Shown here in pieces: positions 9,663 through 33,049 of a stretch of 33,049 bases of DNA. Position 1 is the first letter of the stretch, and every line of letters begins with the position of its first letter. The position numbers and the translations under genes were made by a program. The stretch spans positions 1 to 33,049 of the forward strand of contig CAMGDG010000009.1 of NCBI GenBank assembly GCA_946041635.1, in the 5' to 3' direction. The stretch comes from an uncultured Clostridia bacterium. GTDB taxonomy: Bacteria > Bacillota > Clostridia > Oscillospirales > Acutalibacteraceae. The notes beneath the pieces were generated by a model. The model had not been told where the DNA came from. It was given only the letters and a program-made list of their open reading frames with translations, and made no database searches.

Positions 9663-9795
9663 GCGGGACGATGAAAGGCATCGTCCCCTACAAGGAATCT
9701 ATAAAATGTTTAGCGTGCTTGTAGGGTGCGACGACCTCGGCGCACCGTAGGTTTTTCCTGTGATTTTTCGGGCGATTCGTGATTTACCCCTACAA
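9663..9795. repeat. intergenic hairpin-repeat array A (three units)
   Basis: GGGACGATGaaaggCATCGTCCCctacaa (9665-9693); TTGTAGGGTGCGACGACCTCGGCGCACCG (9719-9747); degenerate CGGGCGATTCGTGATTTACCCCTACAA (9769-9795). Confidence 0.85.
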
Positions 9796-17724: not shown

Positions 17725-19452
17725 TTATTTCGCTTTTGACACATCCAGCACAACATACTCCTTGCCCTGATTGGGGTCAACAACGGTATAAACAACGGTT
17801 GTGTTGTTTATAAATGTAAGGTCCGCATGTACAGATGGGTTTTTGTCAACATATTTCGCATAATCCCCTGTTTCAAGGTTGAATATATGCACCTGATAAT
17901 CCAATAAGCTCTTAACCGTGCCAAGCATTACAAGATACTTTCCGTCAGGGCTTATCTCCATCATCTCGGCGCTCATTCTGTATCCCACCAGCGTTTTTTC
18001 CTCGCCGGTACGCATATTGTAAAGCTTTCCGTTGTCCTTATTGAGAATGTAATCGTCGGAGTGAAGATACTCTGACATTGTGCCGTAGAACGACTTTTGT
18101 ATTTCTTCCGTTTCGCCCGTTTTGCGAATCAAATCAAAACCTGTGTTTGTCTTTTTCATAAATATTACGGATTCGCCGTCGGTCAAAAAGAACTTTCCGT
18201 AAACATCGCTTGCAAAAACCTCTTCCTTATTTCCGTTTTTAACGAAAATATCCTGCTTGCCGCTGTCGGGACCGTATTCCCTTGATGAAAAGAACGGAAT
18301 TTGCAAGGTTTTTGAAACGTATCCCTGCGTGGGAAGCATACAGAAATCGGCAACACCTGCGCCGCTCATATCCATTGTGCGGTTTACTATGCTTAAAAAC
18401 CGCTCTGTTTTGCCACTCTGAATATCAACGGTAAAGCTTTCGGGCCAGAGAATTTCCTTTTGAGATAGGGCATTTTCGCTTGTGGTTGCAAGCAGCAACG
18501 CTTTCGAGTCCTGCCTGTATGCCTCGGGAAGATTTGTAAGCTTAAATATCATTTTGTCATAGAAATAAACGCCCTCGTGCTCGTCGGCACGGAAAAGACC
18601 TATTCCGAAAATCTTATCGCCAAGTTCAACATAATTGATTGTTACGGGCAAAACCTCATTGCCGAAGTCAATATCTGTTGTAATTGTTCCCGTGTGCGAC
18701 ACCTGCACCATTTTGTTGTCACGGTACTGATAATAGCAAAGCTTCATATCTGCCGTAAAGCCGTAAAACACATCGGGAATATCCGACTGAATAAGGTTTA
18801 CCACGCCCACACTGTCACGGGCTATCTGTATATCGGCTATTTTCGATTCGGCAGTATTCTGATCGGGCGGCGATACCTGCGGCTCTCTTGAAATGTAATA
18901 TTTATAGCCGAAATATCCTGCAATGAGAAGCACGGCAAGCAGAGCCACGCCGATTGTTGCAAAATCCTTTTTGGTCAGCGGCTCTCGGGGCTTTTTTTCC
19001 TTGACGGGCTTTTCCTTTTTTTCTTTGGGCTGTTTCGGCTCTTTGATTTTCTTTTCTTTTGGCGGCTTTTGCTGCTTTTCTTTTTTTGCCGCTGATTTTT
19101 TGTTCTTTTTTGTGTCTTTTCCGGGAGTGAACACTATTTCCTCGGTTACACGCCTTTTTTCGGCAGGAGCTTCTGCCGCTAAATCAAGGGAAGCCTCAAC
19201 AGAAGGCATAAAACTCTCTTGAAAAATTTCCTCGCTTTTTTCAGACTTTATAGGTTTCTTAATTTTTTTCTCTTTCGGAGGCTTGGGCTCTTTTACCTTT
19301 TTCTCCTTGGGCGGTTTAGGTTCTTTTACCTTTTTCTCCTTGGGCGGTTTGGGCTCCTTTACCTTTTTTACCTTTGTTTCTTCAAGGGGCGTTTCAACTG
19401 TTTCCGCATCAATTTTCTGATATTTATTATTGAGAGATTTTTCCTTGTCCAA
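17725..19452 (-). CDS. membrane protein with Lys/Pro-rich repetitive N-terminal tail, one TM and a large C-terminal (possibly beta-propeller-like) domain
   Basis: KEPKPPKEKKV repeats, TM FATIGVALLAVLLIAGYFGYKYY; probable TTG start at 19452 behind GGGAGG (track starts at 19482). Confidence 0.75.
   Translation of the reverse strand: MDKEKSLNNKYQKIDAETVETPLEETKVKKVKEPKPPKEKKVKEPKPPKEKKVKEPKPPKEKKIKKPIKSEKSEEIFQESFMPSVEASLDLAAEAPAEKRRVTEEIVFTPGKDTKKNKKSAAKKEKQQKPPKEKKIKEPKQPKEKKEKPVKEKKPREPLTKKDFATIGVALLAVLLIAGYFGYKYYISREPQVSPPDQNTAESKIADIQIARDSVGVVNLIQSDIPDVFYGFTADMKLCYYQYRDNKMVQVSHTGTITTDIDFGNEVLPVTINYVELGDKIFGIGLFRADEHEGVYFYDKMIFKLTNLPEAYRQDSKALLLATTSENALSQKEILWPESFTVDIQSGKTERFLSIVNRTMDMSGAGVADFCMLPTQGYVSKTLQIPFFSSREYGPDSGKQDIFVKNGNKEEVFASDVYGKFFLTDGESVIFMKKTNTGFDLIRKTGETEEIQKSFYGTMSEYLHSDDYILNKDNGKLYNMRTGEEKTLVGYRMSAEMMEISPDGKYLVMLGTVKSLLDYQVHIFNLETGDYAKYVDKNPSVHADLTFINNTTVVYTVVDPNQGKEYVVLDVSKAK
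19271..19372 (-). repeat. 33-bp tandem repeat (about 3 copies) encoding KVKEPKPPKEK
   Basis: ...ggctcttttacctttttctccttgggcggttt... repeated in frame. Confidence 0.85.
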
Positions 19453-19631
19453 AACTATACCTCCCGAACAAAAATTTCGCATTTAGTACATTATACATTT
19501 TTTGCCCCCATATTGCAACATGAAAAACTTTGCAAATCGCCGCAGACGCTCAAATAATTGGCTGTGGTTGTTGATTTTTCAGACGCTTTGTGGTAACATA
19601 TAATTTAATATATAATGTACGGAGCGATAAA

Positions 19632-22836: not shown

Positions 22837-22989
22837 TTGTAGGGGACGATGCCTTCATCGTCCCGCAAAAATCACACCAAAACCCACGGCATGCTTGTAG
22901 GGTAGGGTTTCTGCGCCCGCCCGTTGATTTTACTGTCAACCGGTAACTCCCTCAGTCGGCTTAGCCGACAGCTCCCTCAAAGAGGGAGC
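22837..22989. repeat. intergenic hairpin-repeat array B (three units)
   Basis: TTGTAGGGGACGATGccttCATCGTCCCGC (22837-22866); TTGTAGGGTAGGGTTTCTGCGCCCGCCCG (22895-22923); CTCCCTCAGTCGGCTTAGCCGACAGCTCCCTCAAAGAGGGAGC (22947-22989). Confidence 0.85.
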
Positions 22990-23011: not shown

Positions 23012-23875
23012 TTATTCCTGTGGGGTGAGTCCGGTTAATTCCGTAAAGGCGGGCAACTCATAACTTGGAAAATAAATTCCCCACGACTCACCGTTGTGCA
23101 AAACTTCGAGTATGTAATAGGGTTTAAAGTGCACACAACCATAGTCGTCAACCCCTAACTTATACTCTTTATATTTTCCTTTTTTCGGGTCTTCCTCTTT
23201 ATTCCAACCCAAAGCGCTTATATGTTTGTTCTCCTTATGAATAGCCTTTAAAGATGACAACGGGAACGCGTATTTATTCTCTAAATCCGCAAGTATCAGT
23301 TTATCGTTTTCAATAAACGCTTTGAATTCAACATTAATATACGGCGTCGAGTTAAACCCTGTTTCTTTTGCTTTCGGCTCGCCGTTTTTTATTTTATATG
23401 TAAAGGCTAATATATCAACGGTTTCAGTGTTGTCGGGCACATCTAATTCGGAATATATGCCTTCGCTGACTGATTCAATTTTTCTTACTACATTTTCGCC
23501 CGTATCTGTATTAAGTGTTTCTTTTTGCTTCTTTACGCTTAAAATTTTAAGAATTGCCCAAGTAACAAGACAAGTGCCGCAAACCCAGAACAACCACGGT
23601 GCGTTCTGATAACACTGTGAAATAGTAATATCCGACCACGCTCTCATAATTCCTGATAAACACAACACACCTGCCACTCCGCACACGCCCTGAATTATGC
23701 GTAACGGTAACGGTATTTTTGATTCTTCAACTAAACCGAATGCGTCTTCCTGTGCATTTTCAAGGGTTTGCTTTTGTATTTGTGACACCGTTTTTACTAT
23801 AAATTCTTCCCCGTTAAACTTTTCATTTTTCTTATTCTCTGTAATATCAATACCAATAAACGGCTTCATTTTCAC
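23012..23875 (-). CDS. membrane protein of unknown function with two TM segments
   Basis: 287 aa ORF; hydrophobic segments IIQGVCGVAGVLCLSGIM and APWLFWVCGTCLVTWAILKI; GGGTG upstream of start; no family recognised. Confidence 0.65.
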   Translation of the reverse strand: MKMKPFIGIDITENKKNEKFNGEEFIVKTVSQIQKQTLENAQEDAFGLVEESKIPLPLRIIQGVCGVAGVLCLSGIMRAWSDITISQCYQNAPWLFWVCGTCLVTWAILKILSVKKQKETLNTDTGENVVRKIESVSEGIYSELDVPDNTETVDILAFTYKIKNGEPKAKETGFNSTPYINVEFKAFIENDKLILADLENKYAFPLSSLKAIHKENKHISALGWNKEEDPKKGKYKEYKLGVDDYGCVHFKPYYILEVLHNGESWGIYFPSYELPAFTELTGLTPQE

Positions 23876-23914: not shown

Positions 23915-24142
23915 GCCGCAAAAAAATCATATCAAACCCAATGCCATATTTGTAGGGTGCGACGACCTCGGCGCACCGAAAAAAATGAATAATGTTTCCA
24001 ACCTGTGATGTTGTAGGGGCGGGGCTTATGTTCCCGCCCAGAATTTTTATGTGATTTTGCGGCGGGGGCAAGCCCCCGCCCTACCTTGCTTATTTTGATT
24101 TTATGAAATTTCACAGGGTGGGCACAAAGACCCACCCCTACA
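23915..24142. repeat. intergenic hairpin-repeat array C (linker plus four units)
   Basis: TTGTAGGGTGCGACGACCTCGGCGCACCG (23950-23978); TTGTAGGGGCGGGGCTTATGTTCCCGCCC (24011-24039); GGCGGGGGCAAGCCCCCGCCCTACC (24061-24085); GGGTGGGCACAAAGACCCACCCCTACA (24116-24142). Confidence 0.88.
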
Positions 24143-24165: not shown

Positions 24166-25059
24166 TCAATCCTTCTTCGCCAATTCGGTTAATGAGGTTG
24201 CAAGACCTGCAATTCCCTGAATTTCCGAGGGGATTATTATCTTTGTTGCTTTGCCGTCGGCGGCTTTCTGGAAGGCTTCGAGAGCCTTTATGCTGATAAC
24301 CTCTTGGCTGGGGTTAACCTTGTTAATCATCTCAATACCGGCGGCGGTTGCCTGCTGGATTTTGAGAATTGCCTCAGCCTCACCCTCTGCCTCACGGATT
24401 TTAGACTCTCTTACAGCCTCGGCACGGAGAATTGCAGACTCCTTTTCACCCTCGGCTACAAGGATTGCGGACTTCTTTTCGCCCTCTGCCTGCAAAATCT
24501 TTTCACGGCGCTCACGCTCCGCTTTCATCTGCTTTTCCATGGAGTCCTGAATTTCTTTGGGAGGCATAATGTTTTTAAGCTCAACACGGTTAATTTTAAT
24601 ACCCCATGCGTCCGTTGCCTCATCAAGAACCTGTGTAATCTGTGAATTGATTGTATCTCTTGAAGTAAGGGTTGCGTCAAGTTCCATATCACCGATAATG
24701 TTACGGAGTGTTGTTGCGGTGAGGTTTTCAATAGCCATCATGGGGCGCTCAACGCCGTAGGTATAAAGCTTGGGGTCAACAATGCGATAGAATACAACCG
24801 TATCAATCTGCATTGTAACATTATCCTTTGTGATAACGGGCTGGGGCGGAAAATCCACAACAGCCTCTTTTAAACTTACTCTTTTAGCAACTCTGTCGAT
24901 AATCGGGATTTTTACATGCAAGCCTGTTTCCCATGTTGTATGGTATGAGCCGAGACGCTCAATAACAAAGGCGTTTGCCTGAGGTACTATGCGTACATTT
25001 GCCACGATAATTGCAATAAGTATTACTGCGATGATGATAGGGATAATTAAGAATTCCAT
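24166..25059 (-). CDS. SPFH/Band 7 (stomatin-like, QmcA-type) protein
   Basis: VPQANAFVIERLGSYHTTWETGLHVKIPIIDRVAKRVSLKE; Ala/Glu-rich coiled coil. Confidence 0.93.
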   Translation of the reverse strand: MEFLIIPIIIAVILIAIIVANVRIVPQANAFVIERLGSYHTTWETGLHVKIPIIDRVAKRVSLKEAVVDFPPQPVITKDNVTMQIDTVVFYRIVDPKLYTYGVERPMMAIENLTATTLRNIIGDMELDATLTSRDTINSQITQVLDEATDAWGIKINRVELKNIMPPKEIQDSMEKQMKAERERREKILQAEGEKKSAILVAEGEKESAILRAEAVRESKIREAEGEAEAILKIQQATAAGIEMINKVNPSQEVISIKALEAFQKAADGKATKIIIPSEIQGIAGLATSLTELAKKD

Positions 25060-31183: not shown

Positions 31184-32173
31184 TTATGCGTAATTCTGAT
31201 AACCGGCCTTTACCCAGATAATTCTGAAAGTATTTCCGTTTCTTATGTAGAAATCGCTTCCCGTACTGTTTTTACCTGTGTATTGCTTAAAGGCGTTAAG
31301 GTTGCCGTTTTTATCGGTAACGGCTTTAAGGCCTTTTTCAATACCGTTTGCCATAGCGGTATCCTTTGCATTAAGTGTCATTTCCATTACGCAAACCTTG
31401 GGATCGCAATATCCGAACTGGAAGCCCGTAAGCCACCAATGCTCCTGGAGTTTGCGCTCAAACGCAGGGGCTTTTCTGTTGAAATCGCCTACGGATTTAT
31501 AAAACTTAAAATGCATTTCAAGCAGGTTTTCGTCAGAAGCGCACTCATAGAATTCAGACGAGGTATCGTTGGGGTTCTTTGTGTAAACGCCCATCTCGCC
31601 GCCTGCAAGAACACCGTACTGACCTTTCCAGCACTGAATTCTCCAAAGCAAGCCCTGGTAAACAAAATCAACCTTTATTGTGGTGTATCTCATATTGGCA
31701 TAAACTGCCGCCTCGTCATATGCGTCGCCGAAGCCGAAATGGCGCTGCCATGGATTAAGCGTTGAATAGAAAATGCCCTGCTCCTCATCATATTCATAGC
31801 CCAAGGCTTTAACTGTTCTGATAACATCCTCTGTTGTGAGCTGTGTTGAAGTAGCGTTCTGATTTCCGCCGGAGGTATTTCCGCCCGAGGTGTTGCCGCC
31901 GGAGGTGTTTCCGCCGGAAGTATTGCCGCCGGTAGGAGCTTCCGCAGCGGTAGTGCTTTCGTCACCGGAAGAAGGCTCGGTGCTTTCGGGGTCTTCAAGG
32001 AGCAACTCATCAAAATCTATTAAATCGCCGGTGTCGCCGGGACCCTCAACAGAATCGGGCTTTGTAACTTCGGGAGTTTTTTCTCCGCCGCCCTTTCCGC
32101 AAGCGGCAAGGCAGGTACACATCAAAACAACGGCAGTAATCCCCGCAATAATTCTCAAAATTCTTAATTTCAT
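31184..32173 (-). CDS. lipoprotein with low-complexity Gly-Asn-Thr-Ser linker and C-terminal domain of unknown function
   Basis: Signal peptide and lipobox VVLMCTCLAAC; ATG at 32173 behind GGAGG (track starts at 32203). Confidence 0.85.
   Translation of the reverse strand: MKLRILRIIAGITAVVLMCTCLAACGKGGGEKTPEVTKPDSVEGPGDTGDLIDFDELLLEDPESTEPSSGDESTTAAEAPTGGNTSGGNTSGGNTSGGNTSGGNQNATSTQLTTEDVIRTVKALGYEYDEEQGIFYSTLNPWQRHFGFGDAYDEAAVYANMRYTTIKVDFVYQGLLWRIQCWKGQYGVLAGGEMGVYTKNPNDTSSEFYECASDENLLEMHFKFYKSVGDFNRKAPAFERKLQEHWWLTGFQFGYCDPKVCVMEMTLNAKDTAMANGIEKGLKAVTDKNGNLNAFKQYTGKNSTGSDFYIRNGNTFRIIWVKAGYQNYA
31866..31932 (-). repeat. 15-bp tandem repeat (about 4.5 copies) encoding GGNTS
   Basis: ccgccggaggtattt / ccgcccgaggtgttg / ccgccggaggtgttt / ccgccggaagtattg / ccgccgg. 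Confidence 0.9.
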
Positions 32174-32345
32174 CTTTTTCCCTCCAAGACTTTCAAAAGA
32201 CAAATTAGTTTGTATATTATATTATGACATAATCTCAACACAATGTCAAATAAAAATACTTGCGCCGATACTCTATGCTTTATATAATTTTATGCCTGTT
32301 TATTTCCGCAAACGAGCAAAAACCGTGCATATTGTGATGTGGGTA

Positions 32346-32504
32346 GCGTCCCCTACAAGGCAACTATAATTTTTTGCGAACTTGTAGGGGCGGGTCTCTG
32401 TGCCCGCCCGATAGTTTTACTGTAATTTGGCGGCGGGAGCAAGCTCCCGCCCTACCCGGATATAATTGGTTTTGGGTTGATTTTACGGTTATTTGTAGAG
32501 GACG
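32346..32504. repeat. intergenic hairpin-repeat array D
   Basis: GCGTCCCCTACAAGG fragment (32346-32360); TTGTAGGGGCGGGTCTCTGTGCCCGCCCG (32382-32410); GGCGGGAGCAAGCTCCCGCCCTACC (32432-32456); TTTGTAGAGGACG fragment (32492-32504). Confidence 0.85.
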
Positions 32505-32583: not shown

Positions 32584-33049
32584 TTAAGCTACTGTTTTTT
32601 GTGCAATCTCCGTATAACCTTTTATGGAGAGGTCAACTGCCATTGCATCGTAGGCGTCATAAGCACCGTCACGGGTTACATCTGCCGCCATAGCAAGCCA
32701 TTTATTATCGAGCTTTGCGTTTGCGTTTGCCGCATTTTTCAAAATAGTGTAGTCATCAGCATCGCAAAGTCCGTCGCCGTTAACATCGCCGTAAAGGACA
32801 ACCGTTACGGTTTTAATTTCCGCATTTGTGGTACGGTCATAGAATGTGATTGTTGCGCCCGTGCCCACAAGGTCGGTATCGGTGAGTGCTACGCCGTTTA
32901 TATTCTTAATTGCCACATACATATCCGATGTGTTCAATTCCGCGATGCAGTCGGATGCCGTATTTGCACCCAAAATCAAGCCTTCGGCGTGCAGATCCGC
33001 CTCAATAATCACAATGCTCTTTTCGGCACCGCACATATCGCAAACACCG
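32584..33049 (-). CDS. C-terminal part of a dockerin type I-like protein (truncated by the window edge)
   Basis: YGDVNGDGLCDADDYTILKN...AADVTRDGAYDAYDAMAVDLSIKGY repeat pair; the frame stays open past 33036 as ...GVCDMCGAEKS. Confidence 0.8.
   Translation of the reverse strand, partial: GVCDMCGAEKSIVIIEADLHAEGLILGANTASDCIAELNTSDMYVAIKNINGVALTDTDLVGTGATITFYDRTTNAEIKTVTVVLYGDVNGDGLCDADDYTILKNAANANAKLDNKWLAMAADVTRDGAYDAYDAMAVDLSIKGYTEIAQKTVA

Follow-up and report, generated by a model that had tools for sequence, protein, structure and literature searches.

Two intergenic regions in the 33,049-nucleotide stretch of clostridial DNA analyzed here (the window) carry a two-hairpin element of 75 bp, which raises the question of what kind of element this is and how it spreads. 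A preliminary description of this DNA had placed the two units at 24011–24085 and 32382–32456, and both are present at these positions. The element is a pair of GTAG-headed REPs, i.e., a REP-iREP pair (BIME/REPIN), and not a new structured RNA. We put at roughly 0.87 the probability that both units represent one non-autonomous REP-iREP element, the spread of which is driven by REP-associated tyrosine transposases (RAYTs), with an in-frame REP pair inside the RAYT gene as the cognate substrate.

The two copies have the same layout: a type-A REP (GTAG-GGGCGGG/CCCGCCC), a linker, and an inverted type-B REP (GGCGGGGGC/GCCCCCGCC-CTAC), with heads pointing outward (table 1). The 50-bp phasing described earlier was reproduced, as the distance from the start of TTGTAGGG to that of the second hairpin (GGCGGG) is 50 bp in both copies (24011 to 24061 and 32382 to 32432). 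This phasing is a trait of the A-iB subfamily, whose GTAG-to-CTAC distance is 72 bp in four G000 copies; head-out REP pairs outside the subfamily measure 51 to 81 bp, are common, and often join two different types. The GTAGGG-hairpin pattern GTAGGGNNGGG...CCCNNCC matched the window five times, compared with no match in 100 dinucleotide shuffles. By the hairpin scan, GTAG is located at the foot of a short hairpin, as in GTAG REPs, and two inverted REPs are joined by a short linker, as in BIMEs/REPINs.

Table 1. REPs in the window and neighbors of the two A-iB units
Feature	Position	Strand	Sequence, basis, or remark
Inverted type-C REP	9665..9691	-	GTAG-hairpin scan
Type-D REP, identical with 23952-23977	9721..9746	+	GTAG-hairpin scan
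Type-C REP	22839..22864	+	GTAG-GGGACGATG-cctt-CATCGTCCC
Degenerate type-A REP	22897..22922	+	GTAGGGTAGGGTTTCTGCGCCCGCCC
Type-D REP	23952..23977	+	GTAG-GGTGCGACGA-cc-TCGGCGCACC
A-iB unit 1, head-out REP(A)-linker-iREP(B)	24011..24085	+	sequence, BLAST, GTAG-hairpin scan
Neighbors of unit 1	24011..24085		3' of SPFH-type gene (24166-25059, -); 5' of ORF 23012-23875 (-)
Type-A REP of unit 1	24013..24039	+	GTAG-GGGCGGG-gcttatgtt-CCCGCCC
AT-rich linker of unit 1, 21 nt	24040..24060	+	sequence
Type-B inverted REP of unit 1	24061..24084	-	minus-strand reading GTAG-GGCGGGGGC-tt-GCCCCCGCC
Inverted A-like REP	24116..24141	-	GTAG-GGGTGGG-tctttgtg-CCCACCC
Inverted type-C REP, remnant	32342..32356	-	...GCGTCCCCTAC; repeat family D8, inverted pair I1
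A-iB unit 2	32382..32456	+	sequence, BLAST
Neighbors of unit 2	32382..32456		5' of ORF 31184-32203 (-); 3' of dockerin-like ORF (32584-33036, -)
Type-A REP of unit 2	32384..32409	+	GTAG-GGGCGGG-tctctgtg-CCCGCCC
Type-B inverted REP of unit 2	32432..32455	-	GTAG-GGCGGGAGC-tt-GCTCCCGCC

Scanning the window for GTAG followed by a hairpin revealed nine elements with at least four stem types: A (GGGCGGG; variant GGGTGGG), B (GGCGGG[G/A]GC), C (GGGACGATG), and D (GGTGCGACGA); the degenerate copies at 22897 and 32342 come in addition. Beyond the two units, seven sites are REPs or REP-like. The preliminary description was right in suggesting a REP-type element, and it overlooked the other REP types of the window and the in-frame REPs in RAYT genes. 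Repeats were also seen within two ORFs of the window: the ORF at 17725–19482 (minus strand) encodes Lys/Pro-rich tandem repeats (KEPKPPKEKK) followed by a probable transmembrane segment, and the dockerin-like ORF at the contig end contains DVNGDGLCDADD... and DVTRDGAYDAYD... repeats.

The two units differ in one arm (GGGGGC/GCCCCC vs. GGGAGC/GCTCCC), which had been taken as evidence that the fold is conserved. This change is indeed present, but it does not prove a double compensation. In a set of 44 type-B REPs drawn from seven genomes, 28 have a G.T mismatch at this base pair, 13 have G-C, and 3 have A-T; since the mismatch is the commonest form, each window copy is only one base change away, and the evidence for covariation is therefore weak. 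Covariation between REP types is much stronger than within the type-B arm, and the wider argument for the fold holds because different REP types keep GTAG and a hairpin with unrelated stems.

The host is a gut clostridium, whose own genome assembly (1.48 Mb) is 83% complete and was scanned for REPs over 422 kb; our sample consists mostly of incomplete metagenome assemblies, and hairpins were detected with fixed thresholds. BLAST with the 75-bp unit gave 44 matches in the own genome, full-length ones including those on contigs C7, C50, and C34. The unit also matched 18 of the 24 other genus members; at the DNA level, it had no match in 15 genomes that represent other families in the order. A GTAGG head with a hairpin occurs 54 times in the 422 kb, compared with 2–20 times for control heads, and 113 times in 98 kb (about 115 per 100 kb) of one relative, G048, compared with 0–5 times. 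Across all hairpin scans, control heads gave 0–20 hits, mostly 1–5, and in five genus members without a RAYT match the density of GTAG hairpins was 0–6 per 100 kb and their stems were of the chance type. ORFs of at least 150 aa cover 85% of the scanned DNA of the own genome, and 42 of its 48 scored REPs lie outside such ORFs; the remaining six are all pairs in three RAYT genes. Eight relatives have few in-ORF REPs beyond the known pairs, and these are mostly further RAYTs, chance hairpins, or, in G048, a probably spurious ORF across a REP array. Like GTAG REPs, the element is thus present in many dispersed and mostly extragenic copies. G048 (L107–L111, L312) appears to have undergone a REP expansion, with many hybrid pairs and arrays and at least nine RAYT matches.

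Although the preliminary description recognized no named family, the element agrees in its features with the GTAG REP superfamily and the REP-iREP pairs therein (PMC3733652, PMC3116915). GTAG REPs and BIMEs/REPINs have GTAG at the foot of a 20–30 nt palindrome and are dispersed, intergenic, and often paired (PMC3733652, PMC8266576). The clostridial elements share with this superfamily the GTAG, the 20–30 nt hairpin, the intergenic location, the multiple copies, and the short-linker pairs. They differ from it, as described, in being clostridial, in that pairs are often hybrids of two types, and in the presence of several unrelated types in one small genome; the main text of PMC3733652 contains neither the word Firmicutes nor the word Clostridi.

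A REP-associated tyrosine transposase, as predicted from the element, was found in the own genome. A PF01797 search detected two RAYT-like genes, and protein and profile searches together revealed four RAYT/TnpA_REP loci (two on C18 and one each on C45 and C51), of which the C45 gene and one C18 gene contain an internal stop codon. By profile search, the RAYTs match Escherichia coli TnpA_REP (PDB 4er8) with an E-value of 7.5e-8, and an AlphaFold model of the L173 RAYT from a close relative (pLDDT 85) has 4er8 as its best fold match, so that an HUH/Y1 fold like that of the E. coli enzyme is predicted. Alignments place the proteins with RAYT/TnpA_Y1 subclass 2.4, as they have an N before the first H of HUH, WQ, and YIxxNP; one own-genome protein and two from relatives match NF047646 (REP_Tyr_transpos) with E-values of 1e-15 to 1e-19, under its curated cut-off. 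The GTAG-contacting residues W94, Q95, H101, and R104 of the E. coli protein (and E100, as D) appear, by alignment, to correspond to a conserved clostridial WQ...DH..R. Unlike the clostridial proteins, E. coli TnpA_REP lacks REP-coded loops; its REPs, which have a bulged stem, are located on the flanks of the gene.

Each of the four RAYT genes contains an in-frame REP 5' of the HUH motif and a matching inverted REP 3' of it; the C18 gene, for instance, has GTAGGGGACGATGcccaCATCGTCCC (read as VGDDAHIVP) and GGGACGATGagggCATCGTCCCCTAC (read as GTMRASSPT). Dispersed REPs of types C and D in the window are similar to those inside the C18 and C45 genes: the in-frame reading of the type-C REP at 22839–22864 is VGDDAFIVP, near the C18 peptide, and that of the type-D REP at 23952–23977 is VGCDDLGAP, near VGGDDLGAP of the C45 gene. 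Of the REP types in the window, C- and D-like ones are thus carried by RAYTs of the own genome, whereas types A and B were found in RAYTs of relatives only.

These observations bear on two other explanations of the units. They might be cis-regulatory or small RNAs, with the hairpins acting in the transcript 3' of the upstream gene; both are located between same-strand genes just 3' of a stop codon and are, given this position, probably transcribed, and REPs elsewhere can influence mRNA stability and termination (PMC3733652). However, an Rfam search found no family for the unit (5S rRNA was the only match in the window), the unrelated stems have only the DNA head GTAG in common, in either orientation, and match DNA within RAYT genes, and most relatives have no REP at the SPFH-gene site. 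A secondary effect at the RNA level is possible, yet it would leave the dispersal unexplained, and the structured RNA proposed earlier is in our view very improbable. It is harder still to believe in a classical MITE that would depend on a DDE transposase and have GTAGGGGCGGG/CCCGCCCTAC for its terminal inverted repeats. Being bounded by GTAGGG...CCCTAC and present in many copies, the unit has the look of one, but each REP type is also found singly and in hybrid pairs, no target-site duplication can be read next to either window copy, and the matching enzyme is an HUH/Y1 protein.

RAYT genes were collected by searches over the genus, order, and class (66 non-redundant genes) and from GTDB genomes, with a non-redundancy filter of 85% identity, beyond which kinship still leaves the counts non-independent. 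A forward REP is present in 51 of the 66 genes, an inverted REP in 55, and both in 44, compared with means of 0.7, 0.5, and 0.01, respectively, in synonymous-codon shuffles, and in no gene do the internal REPs have the opposite orientation. Stem arms are 96.5% identical within a gene (perfectly so in 35 of 44) and 59% (0.594) identical between genes, with 27 arm types; this within-gene matching was reached by none of 2000 permutations. In the GTDB-derived set plus four plasmid/phage loci, both internal REPs are present in 44 of 72 genes; plasmid and phage collections contained few relatives.

Across 69 genes with a pair, taken from the sets combined, the reading of the forward REP is GTA-GGG (Val-Gly) without exception, whereas the inverted REP is read in two main frames, resulting in ...PT or ...PL peptides, and the GTAG-to-CTAC span is 176–378 bp (median 194). 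The REP peptides thus vary in sequence and frame, the DNA design being the constant part. In the L173 model, the REP-coded residues form a beta-hairpin turn (44–52) and a low-confidence loop after the HUH strand. In three RAYT proteins (L136, L208, and L219), peptides encoded by REPs are repeated in tandem (e.g., TGVLDCPSETGVLDCPSETGVLDCP; three units similar to GTGPSGTPAPTRE), which gives the impression of an in-frame duplication of internal REPs.

Both flanks were available for 111 non-redundant RAYT genes; in 52 of these, the internal pair is present and the 350 bp on either side contain no REP. Genes with a REP in loop 1 tend to lack one in the 5' flank, and vice versa (Fisher P = 5e-5); the exclusion is weaker between loop 2 and the 3' flank (P = 0.08). 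This pattern fits a movement of REPs from the flanks into the RAYT gene. In a tree of 111 RAYTs, which has too few columns to order the steps or count origins, the pair state changes at least 27 times. The in-frame pair is best read as the cognate substrate shifted from the flanks of the gene into two exposed protein loops.

REPs within RAYT genes are already known from Quentin et al. 2018 (PMC6006769), whose main text reports in-frame REPs often in TnpA_REP subclass 2.4 genes, generally between HuH and Y, and describes this subclass mainly from Cyanobacteria and Bacteroidetes. Judged against that text, the clostridial RAYTs resemble TnpA_Y1 subclass 2.4/RAYT group 4 in the NHxH, WQ, and YIxxNP motifs and in frame-keeping REPs within the gene; the HuH-to-Y interval, which is clostridial loop 2, is a shared site and contains an in-frame REP in 55 of 66 genes. 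They differ in that there is usually an additional forward REP between beta1 and alphaA, so that a matched head-out pair surrounds HUH; the 350-bp flanks are often devoid of REPs. As the main text of PMC6006769 mentions neither a second REP before HUH, nor a matched head-out pair, a tendency to replace the 5'-flank REP, or a clostridial range, the matched pair around HUH and the occurrence in Clostridia look new. Directly 3' of the RAYT gene on a Spirosoma plasmid (L251, 1978–2005), we observed a perfect palindrome, GTAG-GAGACAAGGCatGCCTTGTCTC-CTAC, similar to the 'double foot' REPs of Quentin et al. Intragenic REPs have also been listed in other genes (Di Nocera et al. 2013), and Rickettsia palindromic elements (RPE) are palindromes located in frame in protein genes (cited in PMC3733652); unlike the clostridial pairs, RPE are scattered over many genes and are not paired inside their own transposase gene.

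The internal REPs might alternatively be tolerated insertions in flexible loops that have no role, the RAYT gene being hit often owing to its proximity to its own product or to its dispensability. This is a serious possibility for the RAYT part of our reading, though we think it somewhat improbable. REPs and other palindromes do enter unrelated genes in frame elsewhere (PMC3733652), the REP-coded residues occupy a beta-hairpin turn and a low-confidence model loop, the pair state changes at least 27 times on a poorly resolved tree, and gene conversion between internal copies could explain the stem matching without function. Against it, the REPs are always at the same two sites and head-out, their stems match within each gene across 27 arm types, and other genes are almost free of REPs. 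The stronger proposal, that the clostridial RAYT gene is itself built as a REP pair, with a matched in-frame substrate around the catalytic motif kept by selection at the DNA level, is speculative and on balance doubtful.

The dispersed copies with GTAG heads and intergenic placement, the related REPs in the genus, and the RAYTs with matched pairs of their own type suggest that clostridial RAYTs mobilize REPs. E. coli TnpA_REP binds, cuts, and rejoins REP DNA in vitro (PMC8266576). A clostridial RAYT may similarly bind a single-stranded GTAG hairpin, cleave next to it, and rejoin the ends, by which REPs and REP pairs would spread through intergenic DNA. The spread of the A and B REPs would be due to RAYTs having stems of these two types, and such RAYTs are known from relatives: L031 (G041) has type-A stems, and L036 (G009) and L109 (G048) have type-B stems. 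Protein and profile searches found no RAYT with A or B stems in the 83%-complete own genome, so the A-iB copies of the window may be relics. Dispersed REPs matching the stems of a genome's own RAYTs occur at 1.67 per 100 kb, compared with 0.24 expected (permutation P = 0.009); without G048 the match is not significant (P = 0.12). As the cognate match depends on G048, the spread of A and B by RAYTs of the same stem type is presumed.

Three sites offer REARRANGEMENT snapshots, which reveal breakage at REPs and are no proof of enzymatic transposition. At the G020 site orthologous to unit 1, the iB and the next inverted A-like REP are present, whereas the D REP, the A REP, and the linker are absent; the break is at the base of the iB hairpin and only the left part is missing, which could reflect a deletion there instead of an insertion in the own genome. 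Also in G020, a RAYT on C3 (L079, 4422–4775) has lost its 5' part, starts exactly at the internal GTAG, and is joined to an inverted type-B REP within the loop of that hairpin, next to a type-A REP. The C18 RAYT has an orthologue in G009, with the same dapL-purB neighbors (C4, L083:8099-8408), which has lost the segment between its internal REPs. Precise excision of the internal unit by the RAYT was considered for this case; slippage between the inverted copies is more likely, since the junction keeps CCCCTAC and lies on a 5-bp microhomology, ATCGT.

The mode of REP spread and the reason for the housekeeping-like behavior of RAYTs are open questions (PMC8266576). For annotation, it matters that two variable loops of clostridial RAYT proteins are encoded by REP DNA; this is probably one of the reasons for the low Pfam and NCBIfam scores of these proteins. 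If the RAYT gene is itself a REP pair, the enzyme could regulate, copy, or silence its own gene, and dispersed REP pairs could be seeded upon loss of the middle part. With enzyme and substrate fixed in one short gene and at least 27 stem types, the clostridial RAYTs provide ready-made cognate pairs for the study of co-evolution.
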